Shown one piece after another: positions 16,501 to 42,831 of a stretch of DNA of 64,000 nt (positions within the stretch are counted from its first letter, which is position 1; each line of letters opens with the position of its first letter). The notes below the pieces were generated by a model. The model saw only the letters and a program-made list of their open reading frames with translations, was not told the origin of the DNA and did no database searches. The translations under genes were made by a program, and so were the position numbers. Where the stretch lies: NCBI GenBank assembly GCA_020736575.1, contig JAGPYM010000029.1:310001-374000 (forward strand). The letters run 5' to 3'. This DNA is from Thelonectria olida (Eukaryota > Ascomycota > Sordariomycetes > Hypocreales > Nectriaceae).

Positions 16501-17488
16501 CAATGCCCTGTATTGAGTCTTTCGTGAGCAGAGGATCCAGAGCATCGATAATGCCGGCAAGGTCGAGATCGGTCAGCTTTTTGAGTAGTGGGGAGAGGTC
16601 GCTCAATAACGGCGGAACATCTCCAACCAGTGCCTGAACCTCCTTGACGAACTTGGACGTAAGGAGGGACTCTGCACTGCTCAGCAAAGCCACGATTCCC
16701 TCAATAGAGTCTTTCGTAAGCAGCGGGTCCAATGCATCGATAATGCCAGCAAGGTCAAGATCAGTGAGCTTCTTAAGCAGCGGTGACACATCTTGAAGAA
16801 CCGGCGAGACTTCCGTGATGAGGGATTGTGTGTCGTTCACGAACGAGGAGGTGAGGAGAGCAGCGCCGTTGGATATTAGGTTTTCGATATTCTTCAAATT
16901 GTTGTCGGAAAGTAGCTTGATCGCGCCGCCGGCGAGAGCGCCAATGTCGACATCCTTGATCTGATCCACCAGACTCTTGAGATCGAGCTCTCCCAACAAA
17001 TCCACAAGGGGTCCTGCTTTGGACAAGAGACCTCTAATCTCATTGGGAACGGGTGGCTTGAGAGTCGCCGCCAAGTATATCATGGCATCGTGCAGAGCTT
17101 GCAGAAACTCATCGCTGAGCAGCCCCTCAAGTGCTTTCATATAACCAGAAATGTTACCCAGCAAGTCGAATATCTTGCCGAGAATACCAGTCAGGTCACC
17201 AAGGCCGGAGAGGTCAAACGTGCTACTTGACGAGTCATCGTCTGATGACGTCGAGGAATTGTCCCGCTTGAGGATCTTTGGCCGCTGCGGCTGGACTTTG
17301 TTGCTCTTCAGCAGGGCATTGAGCTCGGTTAGTGCGTCTGTCAGCTCCGATCGAGGAACGAGTGCAAGGTCGTGCTTTGCTAACAGCTCCACGAGCTGCA
17401 GCTCTGGTGGTGAGACGGTTTGGGGTGAGCCTCGAGCCACGAGGGTGACTGGAGCCAAAGAAATGACGAAGAGCGTGGAGAAGCGCAT
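13592..17488 (-). CDS. Giant secreted protein of 57-residue Leu-rich repeats
   Basis: complement(join(13592..13657,13718..17488)) encodes 1278 residues. The intron (13717-13658, GTAAGT...CGCGCAG) replaces a short read-through tail with ATPLIATVADIVHAILKEL, which continues the repeat pattern, so the splice is well supported. The ATG at 17488 starts a signal peptide (MRFSTLFVISLAPVTLVARG). After a Ser/Asp-rich linker (about 80-95) and a helical region, some 16 units follow of the type IDLxGVLDALSPLLT / KxxIxGLVxLLGNAExLL / xxDFVxxxKxLIxxASPLL. Each 57-mer is itself three 19-residue amphipathic helical modules, and single 19-mers occur between units near the C-terminus. Repeated FVNQTQ/FVNETQ sites suggest N-glycosylation. 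There is no transmembrane helix or GPI signal, and only one cysteine-poor stretch after another. I do not recognise a named family; a cell-wall, adhesive or amphipathic coat function is inference. Confidence 0.8.
13740..16920 (-). repeat. 171-bp tandem coding repeats
   Basis: The central part of the giant gene is a tandem array whose unit is 171 bp (57 codons). Units between about 14830 and 16350 are most alike (for example KDSIQGLVTLLGNAESLLSK recurs almost unchanged). The outer units are more diverged and are spaced by extra 19-residue modules. The gradient points to recent expansion or gene conversion in the middle. Boundaries are approximate. Confidence 0.75.
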
Positions 17489-18354
17489 TGTGCTGGTCGA
17501 GTCGTTCAAGGGGCTGCCAATGCAGGTTCACTTGAGTCGCTATCAAGACTTCCCTATCCAAACAAGACTAGAGATAACCGTTTTTATTCGATTGATATAG
17601 ATATGAATATGGACGCTCAACATATGTTAGTACTTTGTTTGGCCACCCATTGGTCCAGACTCGGCGACTTGATGATCGCCCCCCGGCCTCTCCCCAGATC
17701 CCCCGCATTGCGAGCGCGTTCCCGCGATACACTACCCCACACTGTTCATCCGGGTGTTGCGTGCGGCCGAGCCGTGATGCTGGGGAACCTGCCGTTGTCA
17801 TGGTTGGGCGCTCGCCACTGCGCGGTTCGTTGATCCTTGCCTTGCCAGGAAGAGCAGCCCACGCACCTCGCAAGCTTCAGTTCCTCTTGGCATAGCTTCA
17901 ACTTAAGTCACGAGGGCCGTCCAAGCTTCTGAATGCGATTGTGAGATAGTGCTAGCGTCGAGCTATTGATTGACACGAGCCTGAGGGGAGGCCTGAGAGC
18001 AGAAAACGGCCATGGATCATCTCCAGATCAGGCCACACGTCCATGGCCGTGCGCATCAATTCACCTCTGGCAATCTGGTTAATTGCGGCGGAGCTCAAGC
18101 ACATCCTTGCAACCTACGGAAACTCCATTCACAAGCGAGGCTGTTCATGTTGCAACCAAGAACTAAGTCCTCACGACTCTGGCGATCACCCAGTGACTTC
18201 TCAAAGAAAGCCACGTTCGATTCCAATTACTTCGTGAGAGCAGCGGAGAATAGCATTCAACGGGCGCAGCTTGCCGTTACCAGCCCCAGATATGTCTTGA
18301 TGCCGACAAAAACTCGTCAATTGTGTCATCTAACCAACTACTCCTATTATCTGC
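17489..18354. other. Intergenic, no gene seen
   Basis: Promoter region of the giant repeat protein gene on the left and 3' flank of the Sec14-like gene on the right. Overlapping short frames on both strands (17568-17895) are shadows without domains. Confidence 0.5.
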
Positions 18355-20444: not shown

Positions 20445-21935
20445 TCACACTAACTCGAGATCCGTCGAAATGTCCCCAAACCTAGCCCCAGCAATGTCGA
20501 CAAAATAATTGGACTTCGGGCTCCATTGCCCTGTGCCTCCCTTTGGCAAGACGTCTCCCGCATTCTTGAGATACGTTGAATTCAAGGTCATCATCGGCTT
20601 CTCCGGCATGTTGGACTGGGCAAGTCGTGGCACAGCAGATGAAGCCTTCTTCTCTCGCATTTTGTTGAGTATTCGAACAAAGAGACGTGCGCTTACGTCG
20701 GCGCCCAAGGTCCATGACGCATTCTCATAGCCAGTCATGAAGAACAGATTGGGCACATCTTGGAGCATGAGGGCTCTCCAGGCAAACTTGTCTGCAACGT
20801 TGAAGAGTTGCCCATCCAGCATGAACTTGATTCCGCCACCAAATCTGAGCTTCAGGCCAGTTGCTGTGATAATGACATCCGGGTTCAGTTTGGCTCCCGA
20901 CTCCAACTCAATGGTTGTCTCGGTGACCATTTTGATCTTGTCCGTTACGACATCTGCTTTGCCAGATCTAAGAGCAGCGAAAAAGTCGCCGTTCATGCAG
21001 GCACAGAAGCGTTGCTCCCACGGGTTGTAGCGAGGCTTGAAGTGAGGATCCCAGCTGATATCCGGAGGTAGCTGTTGAATGGTCGCACGCTTAATGATCA
21101 TCTTCGCAACTCCCGGGCAGGATTTGCAGAGAAGTGTCGTGAGGTAGCTCCTGAATAGCCAAAGGAGTCGATTGATGAAATGAGCGAGACTTGCAGGCAG
21201 AACTGCAAACAAGAGGGTGGTAAGGTAACTGTTCGAAGGCAAGGAAAAGACATAGCCTGGGCTTCGCTGGAGCATGGTCACTCGCTTGGCTTTGTCGGCC
21301 ATGGAAGGAAGAATAGTGACAGCGGTGGCACCACTGCCAACGACGACGACGTTTTGGTTTGTGTAGTCGTAGTCCTTAGGCCAGAACTGAGGGTGAATGA
21401 TTTTGCCCTGGAAGTTTTCAATGCCCGGGATGATGGTCTGAAGCGGAGTCTCATAGTTGTAGTAGCCGGTTCCAAGAAGAATGAATTGCGAGCGAAATGC
21501 GACGGGCTCCTTTGCTCCAGGAACGCGCACTTGAAGCTCCCAACTCTTCTTGGCTGAATTCCAATTGGCCGACTCCACACCGTGCTGATAACAGATGTGT
21601 TGATCGATGCCGGCGGACTCTGCTGACTTTGTGATATAGTCCTTGATTCGATCACCGGCAGCCAAAGTTTCTTTGTGTGTCCAAGGACTCCAAGGGAAGC
21701 CAAAAGTGAAAATGTCGGAATCTGATCGAATACCCGGATAGCGGAACAAGTCCCAAGTGCCCCCAAGGGATTCTCGTCCCTCCAAGATCACGTAACGAAT
21801 GTCAGAGGGACCTTCGGTTTGGATTCGGTAGGCAGCATTGATACCTGAGATCCCTGCCCCGATGATGATGATGTCGAAGTACAAGTCGTCAATATCCCAA
21901 CTGGAGACATTGTGATCGACTTTGCTGTTGGCCAT
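20445..21935 (-). CDS. Baeyer-Villiger-type flavin monooxygenase
   Basis: Single exon, 496 residues from the ATG at 21935 (the frame extends upstream only to a TTG; ATCATGG is a good start context). It has the FAD-binding GAGISG (26-31), the GGTWDLFRYPGIRSD block, the Baeyer-Villiger fingerprint FxGxxxHxxxWP as FQGKIIHPQFWP (175-186), and the NADPH-binding GSGATA (200-205). Near the end, ITATGLKLRFGG and FFMTGYENASWTLGAD are typical of the EthA-like group. Type I BVMOs insert oxygen next to a ketone to give an ester or lactone using FAD and NADPH; some relatives oxidise sulfur or nitrogen. All the catalytic fingerprint is intact. It is the leftmost of six genes that appear to form one metabolic locus. 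Confidence 0.88.
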   Translation of the reverse strand: MANSKVDHNVSSWDIDDLYFDIIIIGAGISGINAAYRIQTEGPSDIRYVILEGRESLGGTWDLFRYPGIRSDSDIFTFGFPWSPWTHKETLAAGDRIKDYITKSAESAGIDQHICYQHGVESANWNSAKKSWELQVRVPGAKEPVAFRSQFILLGTGYYNYETPLQTIIPGIENFQGKIIHPQFWPKDYDYTNQNVVVVGSGATAVTILPSMADKAKRVTMLQRSPGYVFSLPSNSYLTTLLFAVLPASLAHFINRLLWLFRSYLTTLLCKSCPGVAKMIIKRATIQQLPPDISWDPHFKPRYNPWEQRFCACMNGDFFAALRSGKADVVTDKIKMVTETTIELESGAKLNPDVIITATGLKLRFGGGIKFMLDGQLFNVADKFAWRALMLQDVPNLFFMTGYENASWTLGADVSARLFVRILNKMREKKASSAVPRLAQSNMPEKPMMTLNSTYLKNAGDVLPKGGTGQWSPKSNYFVDIAGARFGDISTDLELV

Positions 21936-22933
21936 GATAACTTTGACCAAACGATCTGTTGCATGAATTTGGGACGAGTTTGCTTATCACCACCTATTAC
22001 TCGCCGTAGTCTTCTTTCATTTAATAGGAAGGCCCTTCGGAGCCAAAGGGGGGACTGTTAAGCCGCAGGTTACAGTTGTCCCGACAGATGACCATAAACT
22101 TGACTTGGGGTTCGGAATGATCGGGGTTAGGAACTTGAGAACCTCGGCAATGGCACTTTGGAGATCATCTTTTGGCTTCCTGGTCCATTGTGATTGTACA
22201 CAGTACGTAGCTATTGATGTCATAATGAGACAACATGTGATTTTGCTTGCGCAAAGCTCGCAATCTATCTCTGATCAAGACTTGATTTTCTTTTTCATGC
22301 TAGCAACGGCCCACCTTGTCAACCGTCGAATGTGTCAAGACATGGATTTGATTTGGATGCACAACTAACGCAATGACGATCGAAGCGCATCTGATCACCC
22401 ATACCATACGGTTTTACCTGTTCTCCGGCACTGGCAAACCCCCCGGTTCGAAGCATGCTAACTAGACCTAGTTTGATAATGCTACGTCACAATTCGAGGT
22501 TCGGAAGCCAGGGCCTAAAATGAAATCGTCCACCAAGTAACGCCGGGAATAGCGCATGTACTGGTTTGTTGCTCAAAGTACCGTACCAAAGGATCGCTCG
22601 ATCTTGAATCAGGCCAGGGATCATGCTTGCGAAGGCAGAACTGTCTGCCTGAGCTAGATTGTTTCTGTCTTGGCCTTTCGCTTGTTGAGTCTTCGAGCAA
22701 AGACACGTACCTGGTGCTTTCTCTGGCTTATTTCCAAGAGCACTCGTCACCTCCTGACTTAGCCATTATCTCATGCTCATCCGTGGGTATGTTCTTCATT
22801 CATGATGCGAAGTTGACGACCAATTGCTTCAGTCATGGATGGCAATAATGAGAATCGAGTGGAGAAGGATTACGATACATTGATGATATAATTTGAATTA
22901 AAGACAATCATACCCAGAACCACGCACCACCAA
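21936..22933. promoter_or_regulatory. Intergenic: monooxygenase promoter and hydrolase 3' flank
   Basis: About 1 kb without a supported gene. The TTCGG-containing words GGTTCGGAATGATCGGGG (near 22115), CCGGTTCGAAG (near 22442) and GGTTCGGAAG (near 22498) recur and could be zinc-cluster half-sites. The evidence is only the recurrence by eye. Confidence 0.35.
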
Positions 22934-24106
22934 CTAGACCTTTTCTGCTTGGAATCCTCTCAAACTGATGTCTGTTGACGAAGTCAGGCATGCCCCTGCT
23001 TTCCTTGCTGCGTCCTCTGCCTCGTTGGCGAACCCAATCTTGGGCCCCAAGAGTAGAATGTCATGAGGGGATGCTTTGGACACAACTAGGTGAGCTCGCC
23101 AGCCAATTTCCTGATAGCGTTCCGTGAAGGCTTTAATGTCATCGCAAAGCACTTCGCGCTCTCCCGCATGAACGAACATGGGAATATCTCTACTCAATTT
23201 GAAAGGATGGTGCAAAGGGGACAAATAAGGACTCGATGGGTCGATTGCCCCAAAGCCAGAGATGGTCAAGGCACCCCATCGGCCGAATTCTTTGCTCAAG
23301 TAGTCTGTTTTATAGTTGGGCGACATCTTGATGTCCTGATGAAGAGCTCCGCTGACATCTACCCATGGAGACCATAGCGCCACGGCAGCAGGAAGAGGAA
23401 TGTTGTGTTCCTCTCCGTGATCACGAATATACCGCAGCAGTCCAAGAGCCATGTTCGCGCCAGCTGAGTCGCCCGACAAGATGATTTGAGCAGCTGGGAT
23501 ACGCTTGTCTCTGACAAGACAGAGATAGGCTGTGAGCGCATCTTGAAGCGGAGCTGGAAAACGTCCGTTTTTGCCGCTTGAGAGTCGGTACTGGGGTGTA
23601 CAGACATGTGTGGAGCCCATATGTCGGATCAAGGTCCGGGCAAGATATCCAGTGTCTTCGTCGCGACCATTTCCGATGACGAACCCGCCTCCGTGAAAGT
23701 GTAGAGCAACGGTCAAGTTTGATTTGATGGATTTCGCAGGCGGGGGCCGTGAAGGGGTCCAAGTCATAGCCAAGGATTTTGGTTGGATGTATGTATCGAC
23801 AAGTACACCTGTATACACTTCTGAGGGCTGTGGATGGATGATTTCGAGTCGATTGCGTTCGCGACCAGGACGAAGTGTCAATGTGTTGCCAGCTTTTGCC
23901 ATCGACCAGTAGAGTAAGACCAATCTGACCACCCGCATACGGGCAGCTTGATTCAGCGACCATTCTCTTGCTGGTCGAGTCCATGGCAAAATGTATAGTA
24001 GAACGTCGAGGAGGAAATGAGAGAGTAGCCATGGGGTACAAAGTAGGATGTAGATGAAGTTGAGAGGAGTTGTGAGAAGAGTAGTAATTTGCATTGTGTA
24101 TGTCAT
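22934..24106 (-). CDS. Alpha/beta hydrolase, hormone-sensitive-lipase type
   Basis: Single exon, 390 residues. An N-terminal membrane anchor (about 7-40: TLLTTPLNFIYILLCTPWLL) precedes the hydrolase fold. The oxyanion motif HGGG lies at 138-141, the nucleophile elbow GDSAG at 212-216 (Ser214). The acid is probably Asp322 in GEREVLCDD and the base His348 in SPHDILLL. All triad residues are present, so it should be an active esterase or lactonase on the membrane face. It lies between the Baeyer-Villiger enzyme and the SDR, all on the minus strand; hydrolysis of the ester or lactone made by the monooxygenase is the natural reading. Fungal clusters also contain such proteins as acetyl esterases. 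Confidence 0.88.
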   Translation of the reverse strand: MTYTMQITTLLTTPLNFIYILLCTPWLLSHFLLDVLLYILPWTRPAREWSLNQAARMRVVRLVLLYWSMAKAGNTLTLRPGRERNRLEIIHPQPSEVYTGVLVDTYIQPKSLAMTWTPSRPPPAKSIKSNLTVALHFHGGGFVIGNGRDEDTGYLARTLIRHMGSTHVCTPQYRLSSGKNGRFPAPLQDALTAYLCLVRDKRIPAAQIILSGDSAGANMALGLLRYIRDHGEEHNIPLPAAVALWSPWVDVSGALHQDIKMSPNYKTDYLSKEFGRWGALTISGFGAIDPSSPYLSPLHHPFKLSRDIPMFVHAGEREVLCDDIKAFTERYQEIGWRAHLVVSKASPHDILLLGPKIGFANEAEDAARKAGACLTSSTDISLRGFQAEKV

Positions 24107-24655
24107 AAGGCACTCTCGATCAGGAAAGGCTGTTGATGGATTCTTTAGAAGTATATGAAGATGTTGAGAGGATGAGGATAAATGTAGCGATTCGGTCGAG
24201 TAGCGGAGGAGCTGGGACGGTTCTATATCACATTATCTAGCCGGATACCTCGGCATGTAAGGGGATCGAGCACTTGAAAAGCGACTGGAGAAGCGGGGCA
24301 GGGACATTCTGATTGCGATTTAAGTGATCGGCTGCATTAGCTGATGAATATCTTGTTCGTTTTGGGGACAACAAATTACACCAGTTAAGCAGATTATTTC
24401 TATACCAGCTGTAAAGAACCATCTGGGGAGGTTTTTCTACGGCATTATTTTTTCTCAATAATACCATCTTATTTTGCGGTTCATTTTATTGATATTGCTC
24501 ATCACCTTGGACGAACAACGGACAATTATAGCTACAGATGTGTAGACTCGGCGAGTACACGTCGTCCATGAAAGTAGACGATGTTTATTTGGCATATAGT
24601 CTATTGCATTTACAAAGGGAAGCATAGCCCTATTCACCAGCCAGAATACTGTTAG
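24107..24655. promoter_or_regulatory. Intergenic between hydrolase and SDR
   Basis: Promoter of the hydrolase gene. CGG-containing words (GATTCGGTCGAG, AGCGGAGGAG, CTCGGCGAG) are scattered here. A minus-strand 76-codon frame (24237-24467) has no domain. Confidence 0.35.
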
Positions 24656-25735
24656 TTACTGAGCTGCTCCCCTTCCTATCGCATCACGCAGCAACTCTTG
24701 TATCCACGTCGGCCAACCTCTGATTCCCGAAATGCCCGACGCTGACCGGGGAATAATGAGCTGCCCTCCCCTTTTCCCCTGTACTTGACGCACAATCTCC
24801 GTAGCTATCTGATCGCTTGTAAGGAAACGAACGCCTGATCGTTGAAGACGATCAGAAAAGCCCGCAACGAGTGGTGTGTCCACAAAATTGGGATGAACCA
24901 CGGTTGTCAAGACATTTGGGGCCTTGTAGAAATGCTTGATTTCGCAAGACAATGACTCATGGAAAGACAAAGCGCCAGCTTTTGTGGCGGAATAATCTGC
25001 TCCCGTAGCCAGAGCGACGAAAGACGCAATGCTAGCCACGGTCACGACATGGCCTTTGTTCAGTTGAATCATGCGAGGCAGGAACTGTTGGGTTGTGAAC
25101 CACAAAGCCATGACATTGACGCCAAAGATTCTGCGCAGAAACTCCTCGGGCATCTTCAATATAGGCAGAGGCCGGGTGATGCCGGCGTTGTTGATGAGAA
25201 TAGACGGGTGCCCAAGTTCTCGGCGAACAGCGTCAGCAGCCGTGGCCACAGACTCAGCGGACGTTACGTCGCACTGATAGAACTTGATACGAGAATCCCC
25301 TTGCAGCTCTTTGGGAAGGTCTTGCAAGTCGAAAACAGCGACACGAATGTTGAGAGCCACGAGTTTCTTGACAACACTCTGGCCGATACCACTAGAGCCG
25401 CCAGTGACGACAGCAATTTCATCAGGCCAGCTCCAACCTTTGCTGGCCCTTAGACGCCAGGAGTTCGCCGCCATTGTATTCAACAATTGATTGACTTGGC
25501 GTAGAATGCCCAGACCCAAAAGGGCGCGCAAGACAGTTTTCGCAGTGGAAACATCCGGCGAGGATGCTTCTAAATGCCCTGGCAGCGCGTGTGCGACAGA
25601 AACAAGCACATTGTGGACTGTTTCTGGGCTGTATGTGACGAGCAGGAGGAGTGGTCCTGATAGGAGAGGCGAAAGGACTACTCTGCCCAGACGCGCGACA
25701 TGGTCGATGGCGGGAGAGTATAGAAGAGACGACAT
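24656..25735 (-). CDS. Membrane-anchored short-chain dehydrogenase (RDH-like)
   Basis: Single exon, 359 residues from the ATG at 25735. I prefer it to the far upstream ATG at 25897 because the added 54 residues do not look like part of the family. A hydrophobic N-terminal stretch (about 17-35, VVLSPLLSGPLLLLVTYSP) and a second helix near 65-80 anchor the protein. The Rossmann motif TGGSSGIG lies at 111-118, NNAG at 182-185, and the catalytic set is Ser235, Tyr248 and Lys252 (YSATK). An acidic residue after the second strand (FDLQDL) suggests NAD preference. The pattern is that of retinol-dehydrogenase-like SDR16C enzymes, which oxidise lipophilic alcohols to ketones or aldehydes, so it could make the ketone for the nearby Baeyer-Villiger enzyme. 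Confidence 0.87.
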   Translation of the reverse strand: MSSLLYSPAIDHVARLGRVVLSPLLSGPLLLLVTYSPETVHNVLVSVAHALPGHLEASSPDVSTAKTVLRALLGLGILRQVNQLLNTMAANSWRLRASKGWSWPDEIAVVTGGSSGIGQSVVKKLVALNIRVAVFDLQDLPKELQGDSRIKFYQCDVTSAESVATAADAVRRELGHPSILINNAGITRPLPILKMPEEFLRRIFGVNVMALWFTTQQFLPRMIQLNKGHVVTVASIASFVALATGADYSATKAGALSFHESLSCEIKHFYKAPNVLTTVVHPNFVDTPLVAGFSDRLQRSGVRFLTSDQIATEIVRQVQGKRGGQLIIPRSASGISGIRGWPTWIQELLRDAIGRGAAQ

Positions 25736-26423
25736 GGCTAGGATGGTTTGGATCAACGACAGAAGACGGATGACTAAATGAAGCAACCTATCGTAAATGG
25801 GAATCGTATAGGGGGGATTTAAATTTTGAGTGATAGGCCACCCTAATAGTTGGGCACGAATGCTGATATATGATCCATTACTACAGTCATATCCCATTCA
25901 TTCTCCTCATGCTGGGGCTCATGTTAATTCTTCGAAGAATGCTGCGAATAGTGAGAGACTGCTTGTATCATCTGCCTAGCTGCCAGCCTCGGTTCAATTG
26001 CGTGAACCAAAGTGCCTGAAAGACTACAGCACTTCGCAAGCTAGACCGTCCTGGGCAATGATGATGCTGATCGGTTGTTCATGCTGATACTGGGCGGGGA
26101 ACCCGTCTGGACCCAGCCCCTCCTCCATCTCATTCGACCGGGACTTGTCAGTTTGCTCATCGCTCCGGATCCGTTCCAGGGTCCGTTCGCAACCAACAAC
26201 GTTCCCCAGGTTTGAAGCTTTACCAGGGTTCCTTGACTAAACCTGTACAAACTGACGGCACGTGGACACCCTCGGTTCCAAGGCACAAGTCTTGGGGCCC
26301 TCTTCTGCTTCCCCGGATTTGCAGCTTCAATCGTCTGACATTTACGGATTATCGCCTGTTTGATTCGACCTCCCCTGGAACCACCTTCTTATCGCCTCAT
26401 TGATTGTGATCTCTGAGTCCATC
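25736..26423. promoter_or_regulatory. Shared promoter of divergent SDR and regulator genes
   Basis: Divergent arrangement: SDR on the minus strand, the Zn2Cys6 regulator on the plus strand, 688 bp apart. Several CGG/CCG-bearing words occur (CCTCGGTTCAAT near 25986, CTCCGGATCCG near 26163, CCTCGGTTCCAAGG near 26271); CCTCGGTT appears twice. Autoregulation by the zinc-cluster factor is plausible but unproven. Confidence 0.45.
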
Positions 26424-28357
26424 ATGGTTTTCCCAGGCCACTTCAGCACTGGTTGCCTGCGCTGCCGTCAGCGAAAGGTCAAGGTGAGTGATAATTGGTC
26501 TTTGCGACCGTGTGGGGTCAAGAAAGATGGTCAAACGATTCATCAAATTGCCAGTAATTGGCCAGTAACAAGGACAGGTGTTGATACTGTATTCAATCGA
26601 CAGTGTGACGAGAGAAAGCCCTCATGCCAGCGTTGCCACACGTACGGCATGGCGTGTCCTGGCTACACCGACCAGTTCCATTTCCGACACAGCCGAAAGT
26701 CGAATTTCGAAGCCTCCTCAAACTCGAGCATCATCTCCATCACGGTGCAGGCGCAGGGCTGCAAGCCGAGAGGACAACGAAGACGACGGAAGCCCGAGGG
26801 AAAAGTACAAGATGACCAGGACCACATCTGGTCGCACATCCTTTTCCGCCCCATTCAACCTTCATACGACGACGTTTCGCTATGCTACTTCGTCCGCCGA
26901 TTCGTATCGCCAGATGGAGGTGATGGATTCCCTGGCCATCTAAGCTTCCTCCCCAAAATATATGACCATGATAACCCTGGTGTCCTTGAAATAGCAACAT
27001 TGAGCGTAGCGCAGATGGCAGCTTATAACCAGTTTGGAGGCGACAAGTTCAGGGACCAGTCGTACAGAAACTATGGTCGTGCTCTCCAAATGATGCGAGA
27101 AACGATGAAGTCGGAAGAGAAAGTCACCGACGACAAAGTAGTGACGGCTATTTTGCTCCTCTGCACGTTGAAGGTAATGAATATCCCTTGTATCAACGAG
27201 CTGGCATCGAGACTAACAACCCATAACCATGAATCAGGATGTCAGCGGTGAAGGGACCGGCGACCCGAATGAGCATGCACCCGGTCTATTTTACCTCTTG
27301 GAGAAAAGAGGACCAGGCCAGATTGCGACGAGACGAGGAGCCGAGCTTTTCCTCCTAGCTCATCTCCGGCTGGTGAGTAATCCATGTAGGAGTTTGTCGT
27401 GACAGACAAATCACTCACCAATCTACACGATAGCAAATCTACTCGTTCCTACACGAAGACGATACATACAGCGATCCCGGGGCCATTGCCACAGTCCTCG
27501 GTCTATTCAATCCCCTTTTGCGGGCCATGTCCATGATGTCGACGACTTTGAGGTTACGCCATGCTTTACTGCAATACATGTCACTCAGTGACCTAGATAT
27601 CCAAGACGATGGAACGTGGCCGATATCTGAAGATGACTCAGCTCAAGAAGAAGGAGAGTCGATCATACAGGCATGCTTCCAAACACTCGATGATTTTGAG
27701 ACTTGGGATGCCGAGGCGGCTGAATACTGGCAAACTACCTTTGAGGGGCGCGCAGTGCCGACAACCTTGGGGGAAGTGGCCTTTGGATCGACACATTATG
27801 ATGCCGAAACAGCATGCACTATCATTCTGATCCGATCGGCACGTCTCATTCTCTTGTTGAGTATGTTGTTATACCATGGCAAGATGCAGCTCGCGGCCGA
27901 CGATGAATTTGGCATCCTTGGCGACAGAGCCGTTTGGGCAGAGTGTATTCCTGTCCTAGAACAAGACGTCAGCAAAACGATCGACGACATCTTGTCAATG
28001 GTGCCATATGCCCTCGGAGACATCAATGCGAACGGCTTACCGTCATCCATGGACCATGACGGGGCCGGTGCCATCATCATTGTTCATTCCATTAGGCTCG
28101 TCACGTATTGCGCATACACAACCGTGGAACAATTTGACAAATCAATGAGCATACTGAGAAGAATCAACGCCACCATTGGAATCAGGTCGGCAATTGGCTG
28201 GGGAGAAGAGATGTCTACATTGTCTACCTTGAAATGGGCAGAGGAACAGTCGTTTCTTCGCTCGATGTCGTTTACGGTTCCAAGCATTGAGATTCCCGTA
28301 ATTTCGCCACACACTGATGTGAGCCCTGTTGAGCTGGAGTTTGAATGTCAGGTTTGA
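26424..28357 (+). CDS. Zn2Cys6 transcription factor, likely local regulator
   Basis: join(26424..26483,26604..27173,27238..27372,27434..28357), 562 residues. The zinc cluster spans the first intron: Cys11-x2-Cys14-x6-Cys21-x6-Cys28-x2-Cys31-x6-Cys38 (GCLRCRQRKVK / CDERKPSCQRC). This intron position, after CRQRKVK, is common in fungal C6 genes. The middle homology region begins near VSLCYFVRRFVSP and has LEIATLSVAQMAAYN and GRALQMMRE. All three introns are GT-AG and in phase 0: GTGAGT...GACAG, GTAATG...ATCAG, GTGAGT...GATAG. The gene sits centrally among the tailoring enzymes and divergent from the SDR, which points to a pathway-specific activator responding to the substrate or product. The target motif is not known. 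Confidence 0.88.
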
Positions 28358-28505
28358 GTCAATTATGAGACATCATAGTTACATAGGAACTACAAATGTA
28401 ATTTTATCTGCAAGGGGGTGTTCTTGTTTTGAGAGTTGGTGTTGAGAGCAATTTCATCATTGTGCTATGATACTATCCGAGCTCCCAGCTAATCATCGCA
28501 TATTT

Positions 28506-29852
28506 TCATGCTCCCTTCTTTTCCTCGTTGAGTTGTTCTAGACTCTGTAACGCTCGTGTATCGCGCTCCCAAAGCAGCATGACGGCTGGAGCAATTGGAC
28601 CTCCAAACACCATCCAAAATGCAACTCTAGCCAGAGTGACCCCTAGACTGGATGACTTCTGGGCCGAATGCAACATATAACACGCCCAAATGACGAACGA
28701 AGCACATGCGCAATAGACGTCCCATCGCAAGAAAGATACAACAATCGTCCTTGCACTCATGACTGACACGGGAGGGTTCAGGAGAGCGCGAGTAGGCGGG
28801 TCAAATAGGGAAGTCGGAGCCAGAATTTCGGTTGCTGACATGGCGGGGAGAATGTCAGTATATGCAGAAGTGAAGACGGTGGCAAAAACAAGCAGGTGCA
28901 CTCCCATTGTCAGGTAAAGAATAAAGCTGTAAGCGCGGTTGGTAGCAGTCCTGTTTCTCTTGGCTTTGAAACGCGCTGCGTGATGAGCTTTGCTGCGTCT
29001 ATTTCCCCAGAATAAACGCAGCAGCGCATGAACTGCCGTCTGATACAGCGGGAATGGCTGCCAAAGAGCAATGCAAACGTAGTTGGCCTCTGGTGAAAGC
29101 ATGCCTAGCAGTGGAAGACTAAGAGCGACTGTTGGGAGCACAAACGCTATCATTGTTGATATCGGTAGCAGAGTGAGGTCGACTGGGTCAACGAGGAATG
29201 CGCTTGGCGGTGAGGCAACAGGGGATAGCAATATCTGGAGCGACAGATACATTGGCGCAATAATTGTTATCGTTACGAGTTGAAATATGATGCCAAATGA
29301 TCCAGTCCTGCCCTGTCTGTTAGAACCTGAAGACATCCATTTAAGAATGATCACCACTGAAACACACCACGTGAGGATGGTGCCTGCATTTGCCATCCGG
29401 AAACCCTCCAGTGTCATCAGGTACCAGGCACCGCCAAACTGGGCTGCCATGTACGTGAAAGCGAGAAAGGCTTCAACGTCCACATTCTCAACGTTTGGCT
29501 GGCTTTTCAAGCCTTGGGCGAAAAACTCCAGCAGAAGATCGATCAAAGAGTCAATCGTTGGTATGTGGGTATAGTGCGTTCGAACGGAGGCCGGAGAGTG
29601 CGACATGTCCAAGACGCATTCGCCCCTCGAGGAGGGCGAGTCGCTGGTACAGACCCTGAGAGCATTCAGCATCCCGTGGTGATAGGACGTGAACATGCTC
29701 GCATATCCCCCTAGCAATGCACATGATAGGATCAGCGCAACGGCTATTCTCGAGGGTGAGTGGCTCATTGTGCGGAAGGTGACAAGAATTACTGTTCCAA
29801 GTGTCTGTGAAATTTGAAGATTCCAAGCTATCTCTCGACTGAATACGCCCAT
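28506..29852 (-). CDS. Unrecognised polytopic membrane protein
   Basis: Single exon, 448 residues (an alternative ATG at 29768 would give 420). I count eight or nine hydrophobic helices, at about 34-52, 126-148, 155-172, 185-210, 226-252, 258-282, 305-335, 370-392 and 400-425. A lumenal loop follows the first helix, and a basic RRSKAHHAARFKAKRNR loop lies between helices 6 and 7. There are no transporter signatures, no UbiA-type NDxxD or DxxxD pair, and no clear catalytic motif. Similarly sized integral membrane proteins serve as terpene cyclases in some fungal meroterpenoid clusters, but I cannot show that relation here. It is divergent from the P450 gene and inside the oxidative locus, so a role in the same pathway, as enzyme or exporter, is likely. 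The C-terminus ends in a charged cytosolic tail (EQLNEEKKGA). Confidence 0.8.
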   Translation of the reverse strand: MGVFSREIAWNLQISQTLGTVILVTFRTMSHSPSRIAVALILSCALLGGYASMFTSYHHGMLNALRVCTSDSPSSRGECVLDMSHSPASVRTHYTHIPTIDSLIDLLLEFFAQGLKSQPNVENVDVEAFLAFTYMAAQFGGAWYLMTLEGFRMANAGTILTWCVSVVIILKWMSSGSNRQGRTGSFGIIFQLVTITIIAPMYLSLQILLSPVASPPSAFLVDPVDLTLLPISTMIAFVLPTVALSLPLLGMLSPEANYVCIALWQPFPLYQTAVHALLRLFWGNRRSKAHHAARFKAKRNRTATNRAYSFILYLTMGVHLLVFATVFTSAYTDILPAMSATEILAPTSLFDPPTRALLNPPVSVMSARTIVVSFLRWDVYCACASFVIWACYMLHSAQKSSSLGVTLARVAFWMVFGGPIAPAVMLLWERDTRALQSLEQLNEEKKGA

Positions 29853-30755
29853 TTGTCAAGAGATATCTAAATGACTACATGCTTTGGACCAACGGTAGAG
29901 CAGGGCAAACATTCGCCCAGCGGACAAAGCATTGTCCCGAGACAATGGGTAAATCATTCATAATTGAAACTATCCTTTTCAAGCCCTAGGTTGCGACATT
30001 GCGTGCTCGGAACTGACGAAGTCGAGAATGGAGGTTTAGAAAGAGTCGACAACAGAAACATGTGAAGACAATCTCAGACCGACGACATGTGAGCCACCCT
30101 AATTACATCGTCAAGGCAATCTCAGGCAACAGCCGACTGACGTATTGCCCAGGATGTCTCGATCTGCACTGTCAACGCCCTCAAATGGTCATGTTGACTT
30201 CAGGTATCTGGTCTGGCAGCTGGTCTCGCAGACTAGGCCCGATATGAGCACCCCTTGCGACCTGCCGCCATCGCCATTCCCAATTTGGATCACCGCGTGA
30301 CCATTCTTGGTCAAAATCTGTCAGTACCAACAAGTACCAAGAAGTACCGACAGACATGGAGGGGCATTTGATCAACTTGCCGAAATGCAATGCGTGTAGG
30401 ACACGTCGGTGAAAGATCCGTTAGGGTTGGCAGATCTCATGCCCGGAGTAGATGGGCCTCTTGCAAAGCATCCTGAAACTCTCCATCAGGATGCAGCAGA
30501 TTGGAACTGATTTTATCGCCAAGCAAGGTCGGTGATTACGTTACGAAGTGTTCGGTGCATCGCTGCCTAGTTCCTCGTTGGCCGTCGAAGAACAACGTTC
30601 AGAACGGAAATATTGCCATCTCTGTCATGGTTATTCAAATTGAGCATTCCTCCCGCCGAATCAGGTTTTCATTCATCCATCTGTTGAGGATCTCGCCTTC
30701 GAACTGTTGTCAACTCTGGAATATTGTATCTTCCTTATCACCGCCTCCTATCATC
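29853..30755. promoter_or_regulatory. Shared promoter of membrane protein and P450 genes
   Basis: A 903-bp divergent intergenic region. It contains two copies of CAATCTCAG(A/G)C (near 30068 and 30116), each followed within about 15 bases by a CCGAC word. It also holds the three-unit AGTACC array described separately. The open frame that runs into the P450 from 30501 has no good start before 30756. Confidence 0.5.
30318..30353. promoter_or_regulatory. Triple AGTACC tandem array inside an inverted repeat
   Basis: Three consecutive 10-bp units CAGTACCAAC, AAGTACCAAG and AAGTACCGAC. The array is bordered by CTGTC on the left and GACAG on the right, so the outer 10 bases are an imperfect inverted repeat (one mismatch). 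It lies 400-470 bp from both divergent start codons, a reasonable place for a regulator-binding site. No known factor is assigned. Confidence 0.45.
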
Positions 30756-32522
30756 ATGACTCTGGCATCCAACCTGTTCAGTTTCCTCGGCCTCACGGTC
30801 GCCGCCACAGCACAGTTTCTACTGGCTATCAAGCTGCTCCCAAGATACTACGAATCTAAGACGCACCTGGCTCTTGTGGGAGTGATTTTCTCTCTCAACT
30901 ATGCGATTGGTGTGCTCTATTGGGCGCTCCTATACCCAATTCTTTTCAGCCCTCTTCGTCATATTCCAGGGCCGAAGGTGAGATATTACCGCCTTTTATT
31001 TGCTCGTCGTCATGGTCAAAGACACTTGCTAATATTATTCAGTCTTTTCTAAGTGCAGCTCATCGATCACTCATTGTCAAGGACGGTCCCTCGGGGAACC
31101 TGTTTCTAGACCTCGCAAGCGAATACCCCCAACAAGAGCTCATTATGCTCAATTCCCTCGGCAATCAAGTGCTGGTTACGAACCCTCGATTGCTCGCCGA
31201 TGTGCTCGTCCACAAGTGTTATGACTTTACGAAACCAACCAAAATTAGCAACTTTTTGCGTCTAATTCTAGGAGATGGGCTCATCATTGTCGAGGGAGAC
31301 CAGCACAAATTTCTGCGCAAAAACACCATGCCCGCGTTCCACTTTCGACACATAAAGGAGTTGTATCCAATGATGTGGGATAAGGCTCGGACCTTGACCA
31401 AGACTCTAAAGCAGGAGATCACCGACACTCCTGCTGGACGTGAGCACTCGTCTGTAATTGAGATGAGCACCTGGGCAAGCAAGGTCACCATTGACATTAT
31501 TGGCATTGCTGGTTTGGGACGCAACTTTGGTGCTGTCGAGAAAGGGGGCGATCCGCTTCAAGAAACTTATGAAGAACTACTAGAGCCGGATCGAGAAAAG
31601 CTTGTCTTTGCTATGCTGTCTCTCGCCCTGGGTTTTTCGTTCGTGCGCTTCTTGCCATGGAGGATGAATGCTGTCTTCAAACGCTTGACGACATCTCTGA
31701 ACGACATCTGTCATCCAATGATCCAGGAAAAAAGAGACGCTATCCAAGAGAAGGGGGATGATCATTTCGACGTTTTGTCACTCCTAATCAAGTCCAACAA
31801 CTTTTCTGACGAAGCACTCAAGGATCAACTCTTGACTTTTCTGGCTGCAGGGTTCGTACCATCCGCACCAAGTAGTGGACAACTCTTTACTAACATCATG
31901 AAGACACGAAACTACAGCTTCTGCTCTCACCTGGGCGTGCTACTTGCTGGCCAAGTACCCTAAAGTACAGGCAAAGCTCCGGAATGAGGTGACTGAAGCT
32001 CTCCCCGAAAGCTACGAGAGTTCTCAGTCTACAGACCTGGCTGGCGTTCTGGAACAGCTGCCTCTGCTCAACGGAATCATGCATGAAACTCTGCGTCTCT
32101 ATCCTACGGTTCCAATGACCATGCGACAGGCCATCTGCGACACTCATGTTGGCAACCAATTTATCCCGAGAGGAACTGTTATGGTCCTTTCCATTTGGCT
32201 CATCAATCGATCTCCGGATATTTGGGGACCTACCGCCGGCCAGTTCTGCCCTGAACGCTGGGTGACGGATGATGGCAAGCCAAACCAGAACGGAGGCTCA
32301 AACAGTAACTACGATTTCTTAACGTTTCTGCATGGGCCGCGAAGCTGCATTGGCCAGGGGTTTGCAAAGGCGGAAATGCGCTGTTTACTGGCTGCAATGA
32401 TTACATCATTCTCGTGGGACTTGGCTATGGATGAGTCGAAGGTGATGCCTCGCGGAGTTATCACTATCAAGCCAGAGAATGGCATGTATCTTCGGTTGAA
32501 GCCACTGCCCGCTGGGAATTGA
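30756..32522 (+). CDS. Cytochrome P450 monooxygenase
   Basis: join(30756..30977,31043..31851,31904..32522), 549 residues. Two hydrophobic helices (about 10-32 and 41-66) anchor it in the ER, followed by the proline hinge IPGPK at the end of exon 1. Intron 2 (31852-31903, GTTCGT...TTTACTAACATCATGAAG) was placed because it rebuilds the I-helix oxygen-binding motif AGHETT (343-348) and TASALTW. The K-helix ExxR is ETLR (405-408), PERW follows, and the haem loop is FLHGPRSCIG (Cys492). All motifs match an active class II P450. It probably introduces the hydroxyl group later processed by the SDR and Baeyer-Villiger enzymes. Confidence 0.9.
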
Positions 32523-34232
32523 TCATATTCGGAGGGAGTAAATGCAAGAACAGGAATGGGAAATGAAAAATCACGCTACAATGTTTTTCACACTCCGTTC
32601 AAATTCTTAGCATTACTTCCATAGTGCATGGCGCGTATTCTGGTCCTGTAGTCCAACTGTCCGGATTTTCTCACATACCACACCCGGATGAACCCTACCC
32701 AAAGACCTTGTTCTTTACTTGTGCTACCCATTGAGTCCGCCTTCAAGCACGCCTTGCTACAACATCTGTGAGGAACCTGTGACCTTGCTGCTTAGGCAGA
32801 CCTTAGGATGCCCAGAATTCCCGGGCGAGTAACCCGAGATTTTCTTGACAGTGCAACATGATGGTATGATTTGCACTTTTGTTCGATTGGTTTGGGCCAC
32901 CGCGCGAACAGCTTAGTATGTGTTGTCGGCTACCTTCTTGCGTGGTCCAACTCTCAGGAAACAATGCCTAATCTGGTACACAATGGACTACTACCTAGGT
33001 GTCGCTTCATCTGAGACATTCTACTGAGGAGCCTAGTAAAGCAACTTACGTGGGCCAGATTGCCTTGAAAGTCACAACAGAGAGAGTATGTGGTATCTTT
33101 GTCAAGCTCTACCTCAAGGTCGGCGACGTGTTCACGGCTGATACGTAGAAGAAGCTTCAACACAACAGTACGCCATTACTCACACTGGTAGTGCCCATGT
33201 AGTATGACAGACCCTTAGCAAGTAACTTCTTCCATCGGCGGATAGCCGCCTCGATGACGCCGTCGGATGGTGACAGAGACACTACCCTAGCCATGCTTCT
33301 CAGCTCATCTAAGAGGTTCATTTTGAGCGGCATGCTTGATGAGAAATTGGTGGTTAATGCATAAATTTCAAAGGGTTAGTGCCGCCTTATTGAGTGATGA
33401 TGGTTCACGGTTCAAACGTGCTCGCGGCGAGATGGAGTAAAAGCGTGTTAGGGCTTGGTCGCAAACTGACATTTGAAGGAATTGGATTGGCATTTTGTAA
33501 GGGCCTTGAATAAGGCACGTCCTGTTAGGACTTTTCGAGTTTGAGTCATGGAGATATTTGTGCTTTTTATCGAGAGTTGATATACCCTACGGACCAAGTT
33601 TTAGGTTTGCCATTCCATCGACATCCAATGCATCGTTTGAAAGAAGACAGAGTCGAAGCGTTGCCCATGACCCGGCAAATTGAGGCCTACTGCTTGGAAA
33701 GAAATTGACTTGGAATATGTGTCACTCCTGCTTGAAGCTCATCACAGAGTGTATAAGTGAACCTCCGGAGGGAGGTCCCAACTGAGCGGTACTGCTTGCC
33801 GCTGTTATACTAGATTAGTTTCCTTTAGCAGGTGCCCCTACCACTTAAAGAAGTGGTTATTATAACGGGATAGTATTTATATTAATACCTTTTTAAAATA
33901 TATATAATATTAATATTTAAATTTTATAAATCTATTTTAAATTATATTAATTTTAATAAGGAAACTATTATTTGATTTTATTTAATATAATTATTAAATG
34001 AATTATTTTTAAATATTATCTTTAATTACTTACAATATATTTAAGCTGTTAAACTCTAGTATTAAGCGCATAGCATGTATATAAGGCATGAAGCGTGATG
34101 GCACCGTGAATATGGCGTGAGACCCCGCTTTTAGTGTTGGGTGTTGGTTGTCGAGTATAAGCCAAGGTCCTATTCACGCGTGCGCTAGATGGCAACTCTC
34201 TTTCTTTCAACCCAACACAAGCATTGCGCGAG
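32523..34232. other. Intergenic, with a short AT-rich relic
   Basis: No gene supported over 1.7 kb. Between about 33850 and 34060 the sequence is nearly pure A/T, like the RIP-mutated block further right, and probably marks an old, unrecognisable repeat. Normal composition returns about 170 bp before the F-box-like gene. Confidence 0.5.
33850..34060. repeat. AT-rich RIP-like relic
   Basis: About 210 bp dominated by TTTAA, ATATTA and TTAAT words with almost no C or G, bounded sharply on both sides by ordinary DNA. This fits a small heavily RIP-mutated repeat fragment; no family can be identified. Confidence 0.5.
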
Positions 34233-35987
34233 ATGGCTCTCATCACTTCCCTCTCACAAGATCTCCTTATAGAGATTATCGAGGACGATGACATTACCCA
34301 GGCGGATGTCATCGCCCTCCGCCTGAGCTGCATCGCCCTCAGCAAGCCCGCCACCATCGTTCTCTTTCATCGCATCCGCATTTCTCAACTCCGCCATGAC
34401 CGCGACGCTTTCCTGTCTATCTGCCGCAGCCCCCATCTGGCCCAATATGTGCGAGAGCTTGAATGGCAGGAAGTTTCGTGGTACCCTGGCTACTTTCGTC
34501 GCATTCCTCGAGTCCCATGCGTCCATCACATCCCGGACCTTTTGACTGAACCAACGGAAGACGATATTGAAGCAACGTGCGACATGCTTGACGCGTTATC
34601 TGTCGACCTGTTGTGGCTACCCATAGTCCCCTACGGGCTGCCGGACCTTGTCGACAGCAGAGTGGAGGCTCAGCGCCGCGAGGCCATCGCGCAATTCCGT
34701 GACGAGTTTGATGAAGTGGTCAAGTTACTGCCAAATCTTCGTACAGTCATTTCTCGGACCATGCCCCCGGAACGCACTTTTGACTGGTGCGAGTACCCAA
34801 TCCAGACAGAACTCTTCCAGACTCACAATCCCGATGATCTAACAGCCGTCCCCCCCCACAGCAATGATGGGCTCTTTCTCTTCCTGCTACCCGCTATGGA
34901 GCGTTCGGCGCTCCATATCACGAGGCTTCTGTGGGAAGATGGGTCTCCAGGGGCCAGCTACCTTCGCCCGTCTTGTCCTGAAGCGTTCAGACGTCTTGAC
35001 ACGATGAGCATCTCCCTCATACCTATGAAGGGCCAGCGGTACGACAATCTAACCACCAACCTCGAGGCAGCCACCAGCGTCCGAAACCTCAGTCTGGGCC
35101 TAGAGTATGTGCAGAACGAAAGAGGCCCCGAGCATCTTCAACTCACATTACTTCGGTTTTCTCTCGAGGATAAGTGTACGCGCTGGTCACAGCTCCATTC
35201 ATTGAGTCTTGTCTCCATGCCTCTCGTACGCAGCGCACTCGTCGGCATTGTGCGGCCAAATGCTGAGACATTGAGTCACCTATACCTCTGCGATTGTCAA
35301 CTGGATCTTTCCGTGATGAAGAGGCTATCTGAGATTCCTGCCCTTCGTCTCAAGTCGCTGCGTGTCGTCGAGCATGACTATCCGCAACAACTAATCGCCG
35401 AAGACGAACTCCTCTGCTTCATCAACAAGGAGCCTACAAGCCGTTATCCCAATACACCCTTTGCGACCTTGGAAACTCTGAAGGTGACTTTTGCAACAAC
35501 CACTTCGGATGGAGTTCGACAATACGGCTCAGGGGATGATGACGAGCAACAAAGCGTCTATAGTGATGCCGATTCTGAGGACAGCCACGACGTCCGTCTG
35601 CGCACCGCTCCCAAATGGACATGGGGCCGTTACTTTCATGAGGATAGGGATGGCCAGGTCTTCTACTTTCAAGTCCCGGATTCGCAACCAGGTGGACATC
35701 CCACTATAAACTGGAAATTCACCAGCCGCGACGGTCAAGTGGGCATTGGCTCTCACCCCTTGGAATTTTTTGATGATTGGGATCCCGAAGCTGGAGATAT
35801 AGAGGAGCCAGTTCCATACTGTACCGACCTGTACGAGTTCTTGAACGAAAGGGTCGTGAGTGGAGGGGTCCTGGAACGGTTCCTAGGCCCAACTGTTGCT
35901 AAGACTCTGTTTCAGTTGAGACCCCCAGAAGGAGCTATCAAATATGACGAGCGCGAGGCTGAGTCTGCAGAAGCGTATGAGGACTAA
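34233..35987 (+). CDS. F-box-like protein with LRR-type body
   Basis: Single exon, 584 residues from the ATG at 34233 (the frame extends upstream only to a TTG). The N-terminus SLSQDLLIEIIEDDDITQADVIALRLSC resembles an F-box helix trio, with the usual LP replaced by LSQ. A long region follows with repeated leucine-rich strands (RNLSLGLEYVQ, LHSLSLVSMPL, LSHLYLCDCQL, LRLKSLRVVEHD), suggesting substrate-binding leucine-rich repeats. An acidic insert (GSGDDDEQQSVYSDADSED) lies near 435. Proteins of this plan abound in Sordariomycete genomes as variable, often lineage-specific adaptors of SCF ubiquitin ligases. A link to the neighbouring oxidative genes is not indicated. Confidence 0.7.
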   Translation: MALITSLSQDLLIEIIEDDDITQADVIALRLSCIALSKPATIVLFHRIRISQLRHDRDAFLSICRSPHLAQYVRELEWQEVSWYPGYFRRIPRVPCVHHIPDLLTEPTEDDIEATCDMLDALSVDLLWLPIVPYGLPDLVDSRVEAQRREAIAQFRDEFDEVVKLLPNLRTVISRTMPPERTFDWCEYPIQTELFQTHNPDDLTAVPPHSNDGLFLFLLPAMERSALHITRLLWEDGSPGASYLRPSCPEAFRRLDTMSISLIPMKGQRYDNLTTNLEAATSVRNLSLGLEYVQNERGPEHLQLTLLRFSLEDKCTRWSQLHSLSLVSMPLVRSALVGIVRPNAETLSHLYLCDCQLDLSVMKRLSEIPALRLKSLRVVEHDYPQQLIAEDELLCFINKEPTSRYPNTPFATLETLKVTFATTTSDGVRQYGSGDDDEQQSVYSDADSEDSHDVRLRTAPKWTWGRYFHEDRDGQVFYFQVPDSQPGGHPTINWKFTSRDGQVGIGSHPLEFFDDWDPEAGDIEEPVPYCTDLYEFLNERVVSGGVLERFLGPTVAKTLFQLRPPEGAIKYDEREAESAEAYED

Positions 35988-38142: not shown

Positions 38143-38147
38143 ATTAA

Positions 38148-38540
38148 TATAATGATCTGGTCAGTTTCCCAATGGATAAAGACTAGAGGGTTCTAGGTTT
38201 ATATTAGTAGAGAGATTAGGGCATTAAGGTCTAAGTAATATAATAGGGTATTATATCTGGTAATATGCTTAAAGTAGATAAATGTAATTAAGTGTTATTA
38301 AAAGCTAAAGAAGTTATATCTATCTAATATATTAAATAAATATGTTTATATATTAAGAGAGTGCTTTTTTAGATTATAGTTAAGGACTGTGATCCTTCTT
38401 TAGGATTATAATAAGAGGAGTGATTCTTTCTATTAGATTATAAATAAGGGAGTGATCTTTTATGTAATTGGAGGGGGAAAAGTGGAGTAGTTAGGTTAGC
38501 TTTTTAGTATATAATATGGGAACTATTATAGGTTGTGATA
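38148..38540 (-). repeat. 3' LTR of the outer element
   Basis: 393 bp, a direct repeat of 54171-54563. On the minus strand it begins TATCACAACCTATAATAG, a mutated form of the TGTCACAACCCGTGACAG start seen in the other copy. It is strongly RIP-mutated throughout. Confidence 0.93.
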
Positions 38541-38756
38541 TAATATCTCCCCTCTGTTAGTCTTATCCTTAAGGCTATATTTATAACCTTGTATAATTGC
38601 TAGTAGTTAGTTAATTTAACTCCCTATTTTTTCTTTTCCTGCAGTTACTATTGTGCTAATATTATATTAGGTTATATAATAAAATTGAAAGTAAAAAAGA
38701 CTTTTAAATATAATTTTTTAGTTTGCTTTTTAGAGTATAATTTGCAACTAGCCGAT

Positions 38757-39341
38757 ATGCCTTATATTTATTACTTTAAGTATAATCTGCTATTAGTATA
38801 TAAAATGGATAATTTAGGTCGGTCTAATTATTATAAATAGTATGCTTGTTATAGTTGTACTTATAATAGGGTTTAGGTAGTGTCTTCTTATAGGTGTTTT
38901 CCTTACTTATATTATTATTTTGGGCGGTGCTAACCTTTTATAGTAAATAGGCTTATTAAGTAATAGAAAAAGCTTAAGGCTAAGGAGGAAGAGGCTGGGG
39001 ATAAAATCCTTATTTTTTATATTTAGCTTATTAAGCTTTAATTATTACTTGCTTAAGCTGTAAGTTATCTGGCTTATATTTATAAAATTAAGAAGAGGGT
39101 TAAAGAGAAGGGTTTTAAATTATTTAAGTGTAGTATATTAGAGTTGGATAAAGAGGATGGTATTCTCCTTATATTAGAGTCTTATAAGAATTAGGTGGTA
39201 AGTGACTTTTAGTTATTAGGTGTTCCTAATAAGGTGGATTAGTCTTCCTTAGGTTTTAGAGATAAGTTTAGTGGAGTTGGTCCCTTGCTTCCTTTTAGCG
39301 TTACTAGTGAAAGTTCTTTAGTAGGCGCTATATATAGTTAA
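38757..39341 (+). pseudogene. Antisense accessory ORF of the outer element
   Basis: On the strand opposite to gag-pol, between the chromodomain end and the 3' LTR, one frame of 194 codons remains protein-like if the RIP stops are ignored. It starts MPYIYYFKYN, has a cysteine patch YACYSCTYN, an alpha-helical charged stretch KLKAKEEEAGDKI, RVKEKGFKLF, and a conserved LLGVPNKVD..SSLG block. Nearly all internal stops are TAG or TAA that can come from C-to-T or G-to-A changes. The inner element has the same ORF. Proteins of this type (Cys motif, coiled coil, VxxDLxLLGVPN) are familiar to me from other Sordariomycete genomes; their function is unknown. Confidence 0.7.
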
Positions 39342-39349
39342 GGTGTTCT

Positions 39350-42826: not shown

Positions 42827-42831
42827 GGTTA

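Follow-up and report, generated by a model that had tools for sequence, protein, structure and literature searches.

The 64,000-nucleotide window analysed here (positions 310,001 to 374,000 of contig JAGPYM010000029.1, assembly GCA_020736575.1) of the root-associated fungus Thelonectria olida (Nectriaceae) carries six neighbouring genes at 20445..32522 in window coordinates. They encode a Baeyer-Villiger monooxygenase (BVMO), a hormone-sensitive lipase (HSL)-type hydrolase, a short-chain dehydrogenase/reductase (SDR), a Zn2Cys6 regulator, a polytopic membrane protein and a cytochrome P450. We propose, with a probability of roughly 0.6, that a five-gene core and one lineage-specific membrane protein would form a cluster that is conserved, induced by its substrate and catabolic or detoxifying in function. 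The core probably comprises the P450, the regulator, the SDR, the hydrolase and the BVMO.

Gene order in relatives was read from locus tags in three protein searches (BVMO, membrane protein and P450) and from contigs of equal size. The BVMO and P450 listings hold the best 120 matches and each record represents a protein cluster; counts of shared contigs are therefore lower bounds. A sequence-only reading of this DNA had treated the six genes as a unit and proposed a synteny search as a check, which is positive as far as it was run. Sequential tags could be read for both P450 and BVMO in 11 genomes, and in 10 of these, which include Fusarium, Neoarthrinium, Sarocladium, Xylaria and Chaetomiaceae, the two genes lie three to five tags apart. 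The distance is five in FDECE_10238/10243, F53441_6498/6503, JN550_012495/012490 and NLU13_2722/2717, and four in ACHAPJ_009662/009666, VTH82DRAFT_7044/7048, VTK26DRAFT_8057/8053, F66182_2396/2392 and GQX73_g6980/g6976. It is three in N0V88_001480/001483, where regulator and P450 are merged in one model. The membrane protein tag adjoins the P450 tag in four of four genomes (FDECE, AK830, F53441, FGRMN) and stands four tags from the BVMO in four of five (FDECE, ACJZ2D, F53441, NW768; the exception is Curvularia). Judged by equal contig size, a listed P450 is on the same contig as the BVMO in at least 29 of 57 named BVMO records, and as the membrane protein in at least 12 of the 41 that are named for it. 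As far as the tags show, P450, membrane protein and BVMO keep their spacing also in distant relatives, and the six genes behave as a unit.

The order of hydrolase and BVMO can also be followed in long records. By Pfam content, 12 of the 120 best BVMO matches (Ilyonectria, Xylaria, Nemania) join a hydrolase and a BVMO, and in the 10 whose BVMO motif was located the hydrolase comes before the BVMO, the same order as in the window. Judging by their sequences, these records are likelier to be merged gene models of tandem genes. A true fusion in Xylaria was considered and rejected: the four of 12 linkers seen are all irregular, three with a methionine before the BVMO part. The identity of the genes between P450 and BVMO in most relatives is something we infer. 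A distance of four also occurs in two genomes of Fusarium, a genus with the membrane protein, and a distance of five in Sarocladium strictum, of a genus without a named membrane-protein match, so tag distance alone cannot show which gene is gone.

Protein families were assigned by Pfam profile scores against cut-offs, and motifs by pattern search of the translations. All six genes are of the types, and at the coordinates, first given for them; five are confirmed by a Pfam family match, with catalytic motifs intact. The BVMO (20445..21935, minus strand; single exon, 496 residues, 55.4 kDa) has an FMO-like Pfam match of 48 bits (cut-off 22). Its motifs are FxGxxxHxxxWP (FQGKIIHPQFWP), GGTWDLFRYPGIRSD and two copies of GxGxx[GA]; it thus bears the features of a type I enzyme, namely two Rossmann motifs, FxGxxxHxxxW[PD] and [AG]GxWxxxx[FY]P[GM]xxxD. 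Its hydropathy profile holds no transmembrane segment. The 120 best relatives listed are 59-81% identical to it, and several carry the database name EthA. Solved structures of the cyclohexanone and phenylacetone monooxygenase type align only with about residues 18-234, and bacterial kin over nearly the full length. A 2550-base contig in a record labelled Candidatus Bathyarchaeota (P0167) encodes a BVMO with 66% identity to that of the window, probably because fungal DNA contaminated a metagenome bin.

The hydrolase (22934..24106, minus strand; 390 residues) has an N-terminal hydrophobic segment at residues 18-36 and the motifs HGGG, GDSAG, AGEREVLCDD and PHD. It matches PF07859 (Abhydrolase_3) at 100.8 bits (cut-off 25) and, on an overlapping stretch, PF10340 (Say1_Mug180) at 43.4 bits (cut-off 21). 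The SDR (24656..25735, minus strand; 359 residues) matches PF00106 (adh_short) at 135.7 bits (cut-off 26.6) and carries TGGSSGIG, NNAG and S..Y..K; a hydrophobic segment at 16-34 lies within roughly 100 additional residues at the N-terminus. Its solved relatives are, in order, HSD17B11 (17beta-HSD 11; E 3.9e-25), glucose dehydrogenase, FabG-like enzymes and HSD17B13. Use of NAD is suggested by an acidic residue that follows the second strand (VAVFDLQ). The regulator (26424..28357, plus strand; 562 residues) is modelled with four exons (26424-26483, 26604-27173, 27238-27372, 27434-28357), contains the six-cysteine pattern, and scores 42 bits for Zn_clus and 23.5 bits for Fungal_trans_2 (cut-off 21 for each). 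The P450 (30756..32522, plus strand; 549 residues) is modelled with three exons (30756-30977, 31043-31851, 31904-32522) and matches PF00067 at 264.1 bits (cut-off 22.8). It shows AGHET, ETLR and FLHGPRSCIG, as well as hydrophobic segments at 7-25 and 38-56. Its relatives of solved structure are varied and include plant carotene hydroxylases, CYP3A4, CYP4B1 and BM3. N-terminal hydrophobic segments are found in the P450, the SDR and the hydrolase, and none in the BVMO. By the gene models, divergent promoter regions separate the SDR from the regulator (25736..26423) and the membrane protein from the P450 (29769..30755).

The membrane protein gene (28506..29768, minus strand) is not one open frame. 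It is interrupted by an in-frame 60-nucleotide GT..AG intron (29308-29367) with a CTAAC motif, and its unspliced reading has 20 extra residues against 26 of 26 aligned relatives. Spliced, from the start at 29768, the product is identical in 400 of 400 residues to the T. olida protein P0001 and has six hydropathy peaks. P0001 is among the matches listed, and no T. olida BVMO or P450 is among the best 120, though the window encodes both, a gap that gene models or omitted records may account for. The AlphaFold2 model has a pLDDT of 84.1 and a pTM of 0.88. P0001 has no Pfam family, the unspliced reading gave no PDB sequence match, and Foldseek, VIA and Pfam searches gave no useful match to a membrane terpene cyclase or a solved membrane fold. 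The family has many invariant residues, polar ones included, and W-P-F-P is among the invariants. In Collariella (P0289), regulator and P450 are merged into a single model with no space for the membrane protein, and the 41 named membrane-protein records include no entry from Chaetomiaceae or from Xylaria/Nemania. The protein thus seems to be optional and lineage-specific, absent from some versions of the cluster. A hidden terpene cyclase serving as backbone enzyme was also considered, and that candidate is weakened: because the protein is seemingly dispensable, an obligatory backbone role is unlikely for it. The suggestion that the locus serves uptake found no support, the protein having neither family nor fold match and seemingly missing in some cluster versions.

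We postulate the following course. The P450 would hydroxylate a lipophilic compound at a methylene, and the SDR with NAD would oxidize the secondary alcohol to a ketone. The BVMO, with NADPH and O2, would then insert oxygen beside the carbonyl, and the hydrolase would cleave the resulting ester or lactone to an alcohol and a carboxylate, which would pass to general metabolism or out of the cell. Presumably the neighbouring regulator responds to the substrate or to one of the intermediates. The N-terminal hydrophobic segments of the P450, the SDR and the hydrolase would suit a lipophilic substrate handled at the endoplasmic reticulum membrane, where the whole course would be located. We infer the order of the reactions, their location, the regulation and the catabolic purpose. 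The series of hydroxylation, oxidation, oxygen insertion and hydrolysis, as originally suggested, is the most economical use of the four enzymes. An alternative order of BVMO, hydrolase and SDR is conceivable, because the dehydrogenase acts last in the VidF/VidP/VidH system.

A comparable kit recurs within the T. olida genome (assembly of 52.5 Mb scanned). Pairs of a flavin-containing monooxygenase (FMO) family gene and a hydrolase gene stand at five loci, three of which also have an SDR and a P450. The closest paralogues of the BVMO (51%) and the hydrolase (42%) lie head to head at C153:7114-10195, adjoined by another P450, an SDR and a PDR-type ABC transporter (C153:1-20000). At C111:1931001-1951000, P450, SDR, FMO-like and Abhydrolase_3/Say1 genes fall inside about 8 kb; an extra open reading frame (ORF) there reads, by eye, like a Zn2Cys6 regulator. 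Two more FMO-Abhydrolase_3 neighbourhoods occur at C112 and C57; at C112 an ORF reads, by eye, like an SDR, and no SDR or P450 was found at the C57 locus. Beside the third BVMO paralogue (C1, 39%), no hydrolase match turned up. The families occupy 46 (FMO) and 63 (Abhydrolase_3) places genome-wide. Against a null of even spread over the genome, and with small numbers and an FMO family that includes non-BVMO enzymes, four FMO-Abhydrolase_3 pairs within 3 kb (the window's included) compare with 0.33 expected, a 12-fold excess, and five within 5 kb make a 9-fold excess. The control of P450-Abhydrolase_3 pairs gave three within 3 kb against 0.65 expected (4.6-fold) and 3.7-fold within 5 kb. The closest paralogue of the SDR (46%) is separated by 5.6 kb from a gene of squalene-hopene/oxidosqualene cyclase type (PF13249, PF13243) at C129:20070-21887.

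Actinobacteria also have this type of BVMO, and the bacterial loci were examined for the best 80 of at least 562 related stretches. These are 41-46% identical over nearly the full length; 56 of the 80 belong to Actinomycetota, and the nearest kin are largely Mycobacteriaceae. A hydrolase neighbour above 60 bits occurs in none of the 80 (three score 24-32 bits, and some loci are cut by contig ends), a P450 neighbour above 40 bits in none, and an SDR neighbour above 60 bits in four. Descent from an operon like mymA, which we take to consist of BVMO, LipR and SadH, was rejected on the count for the hydrolase in these 80 loci. A quick BVMO tree was built from the 80 bacterial rows, the window's protein, two of its own paralogues and 26 of the 120 listed fungal matches. 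It places the 29 fungal rows on one side of a branch with a Shimodaira-Hasegawa-like approximate likelihood ratio (SH-aLRT) support of 99, the C1 paralogue being on a very long branch. Because the bacterial loci examined lack hydrolase and P450 neighbours above those scores and the fungal BVMOs split off as one side, the cluster looks to have been assembled in fungi. Curvularia kusanoi E8E13 and Xylogone sp. PMI_703, which we take to be a Dothideomycete and a Leotiomycete, hold relatives about as close as those in many Hypocreales. Together with the position of the Curvularia BVMO beside that of Sarocladium (support 99), this closeness suggests horizontal transfer.

Several observations weigh against a catabolic cluster conserved as a unit. 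Synteny is broken in Xylaria hypoxylon (P450 g9026, BVMO g4383, on contigs of different size), in Curvularia kusanoi, where membrane protein and BVMO are 167 tags apart, and in Clonostachys solani, where the BVMO match is, judged by size, on another contig than the P450 and the membrane protein. No spaced CGG/CCG pattern that could serve as a shared regulator site occurs in three or more of the four promoter regions; no 8-mer is common to all four, and one is common to three. No transporter from a known family belongs to the core, and enzymes of these types are also employed in tailoring secondary metabolites. When the distance is widened to 10 kb, FMO-Abhydrolase_3 pairs (5.4-fold) are no more enriched than P450-Abhydrolase_3 pairs (5.5-fold), which means that such genes cluster in general and that this accounts for part of the excess. 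A chance neighbourhood of unrelated oxidative genes would fit such clustering and the large size of the P450, SDR and hydrolase families; it is very improbable given that the spacing recurs in Fusarium, Sarocladium, Neoarthrinium, Xylaria and Chaetomiaceae. A tailoring arm of a biosynthetic pathway, with the backbone enzyme elsewhere or in the membrane protein itself, is an unlikely alternative, as is the split biosynthetic cluster that had been offered as a second option. Sets of P450, SDR, BVMO and hydrolase do occur in biosynthesis, as in the vid cluster, and the membrane protein is predicted to fold confidently, without a known relative and with invariant polar residues; on the other side stands its apparent dispensability, as in Collariella P0289. 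As had been reported, no polyketide synthase, non-ribosomal peptide synthetase, dimethylallyltryptophan synthase or canonical terpene synthase lies between the flanking genes (ORF list and Pfam), and a Pfam scan of 10 further window ORFs revealed none either.

The other alternatives concern the substrate of the same cascade. It is possible, at well below even odds, that a linear aliphatic chain (wax, cuticular alkane, methyl ketone or fatty chain) is oxidized subterminally to a secondary alcohol, a ketone, an ester, and finally an alcohol and an acid. The EthA names among the BVMO relatives and the mycobacterial leaning of the bacterial kin point this way; an excerpt of PMC9044951 has the activity of EthA, MymA and Rv0565c rising from cyclic to linear substrates, and a passage of PMC4192553 claims subterminal alkane oxidation for filamentous fungi. 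The EthA likeness, however, rests on the names of relatives and not on the EthA sequence, the P450 has such varied solved relatives that they give no particular pointer to fatty substrates, and SDR and hydrolase lean towards steroid-like compounds.

The cylindrocarpon-type course of steroid degradation leads from progesterone through testosterone acetate, testosterone and androstenedione to testololactone. For a steroid or cyclic terpenoid undergoing side-chain or ring cleavage, which we regard as a doubtful candidate, the arguments are the nearness of the SDR to HSD17B11 and the steryl acetyl hydrolase domain (Say1_Mug180) of the hydrolase. The sequence-only reading had favoured such a cyclic, terpenoid or steroid-like compound; these two points agree with it, and the linear preference of EthA, MymA and Rv0565c, taken with the EthA names among the BVMO relatives, does not. 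An analogous fungal triad cleaves the progesterone side chain (PMC5943271, in part). Further points are associations only: limonene detoxification implicates Grosmannia BVMOs (excerpt of PMC8120277); a close P450 (P0199) is found in Ilyonectria destructans, the resolved name for Cylindrocarpon radicicola; Seiridium cardinale, which has membrane-protein and P450 relatives (P0024, P0258), transforms camphor, bornyl acetate and cedrol (excerpt of PMC4726198); and Beauveria bassiana, with a membrane-protein relative (P0040, 44%), lactonises steroids (excerpt of PMC6128828). Against a steroid substrate, the same excerpt calls steroid D-ring lactones characteristic mainly of Penicillium and Aspergillus, both absent among the listed matches (BVMO and P450 best 120; membrane protein). 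It is improbable, if conceivable, that the cluster is the basis of the classical steroid Baeyer-Villiger degradation in cylindrocarpon-type fungi, through an EthA-like lineage independent of VidF. In that case P450 hydroxylation, an HSD17B11-like SDR and a Say1-like hydrolase of the 17-acetate would be joined by one BVMO acting on both side chain and D ring.

On the left, the cluster is bordered by the CRAL_TRIO/Sec14 gene that had been named, which the Pfam match bears out; the right-hand gene (34161-35987), read as F-box-like, has no Pfam match at E<=0.01. From flank to flank there is no extra ORF of at least 150 residues apart from frames overlapping the six genes. A 211-base island with 12% GC lies at 33850-34060. 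A 16.5-kb block with 25% GC (38000-54500) begins about 5.5 kb past the P450 and, with TpA/ApT of 1.48 and (CpA+TpG)/(ApC+GpT) of 0.44, carries the signature of repeat-induced point mutation. Just past it, at 57625-58847, two ORFs in different frames resemble parts of another P450, one matching PF00067 at 49.9 bits; they are either exons of a single gene or a decayed gene. A repeat-built protein of 1284 residues with 171-base tandem units and weak, scattered Pfam matches is encoded at 13673-17527.

Among known systems, the closest worked-out parallel is VidF, VidP and VidH of the demethoxyviridin cluster of Nodulisporium. Excerpts of PMC5943271 present their BVMO-esterase-dehydrogenase chemistry as proven, with the dehydrogenase last, and the triad as acting on progesterone in A. 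oryzae. As in the present cluster, BVMO, esterase and dehydrogenase are there clustered with P450s in a fungus; compared by length only, VidF has 541 residues against 496, VidH 283 against 359 and VidP 354 against 390. The vid setting differs, with 19 genes and six P450s. Likeness to the EthA/MymA type lies in the BVMO fingerprints and in the fungal relatives named EthA; unlike mymA-type operons, the bacterial kin of the present BVMO have no HSL neighbour in 80 of the 80 best loci. Bacterial BVMO-esterase routes are exemplified by the genes bmoF1 and estF1. The dehydrogenase-BVMO-esterase routes for alkanes and ketones (Gordonia TY-5, cited in a passage of PMC4192553) use the same chemical steps, a likeness by chemistry only. 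Excerpts of PMC3091685 and PMC8120277 tie BVMO genes of Grosmannia clavigera to phloem extract and limonene, a BVMO-type enzyme and a P450 again belonging to an inducible cluster, in an ascomycete that attacks plants. Its partners differ (a beta-lactamase-like protein, an MFS transporter and a P450 reductase), and that cluster is reported not to be conserved in Fusarium.

Literature searches, including the locus tags of six relatives, found no study of the present cluster, and the excerpts of a F. graminearum P450 paper (PMC5869400) and of PMC3915288 hold nothing on this locus. A 2021 review (PMC8120277, in part) credits only individual genes with a role in fungal detoxification clusters. That the spacing has persisted across Fusarium, Xylaria and Chaetomium-like fungi speaks for a function that selection has long maintained. 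If catabolic, the cluster would be a complete Baeyer-Villiger degradation route in one inducible unit and would show whether these fungi of soil and roots feed on plant waxes, terpenoids or sterols or render them harmless. As a whole, the six genes make up a real, apparently conserved catabolic-type cluster, of a kind of system already known.

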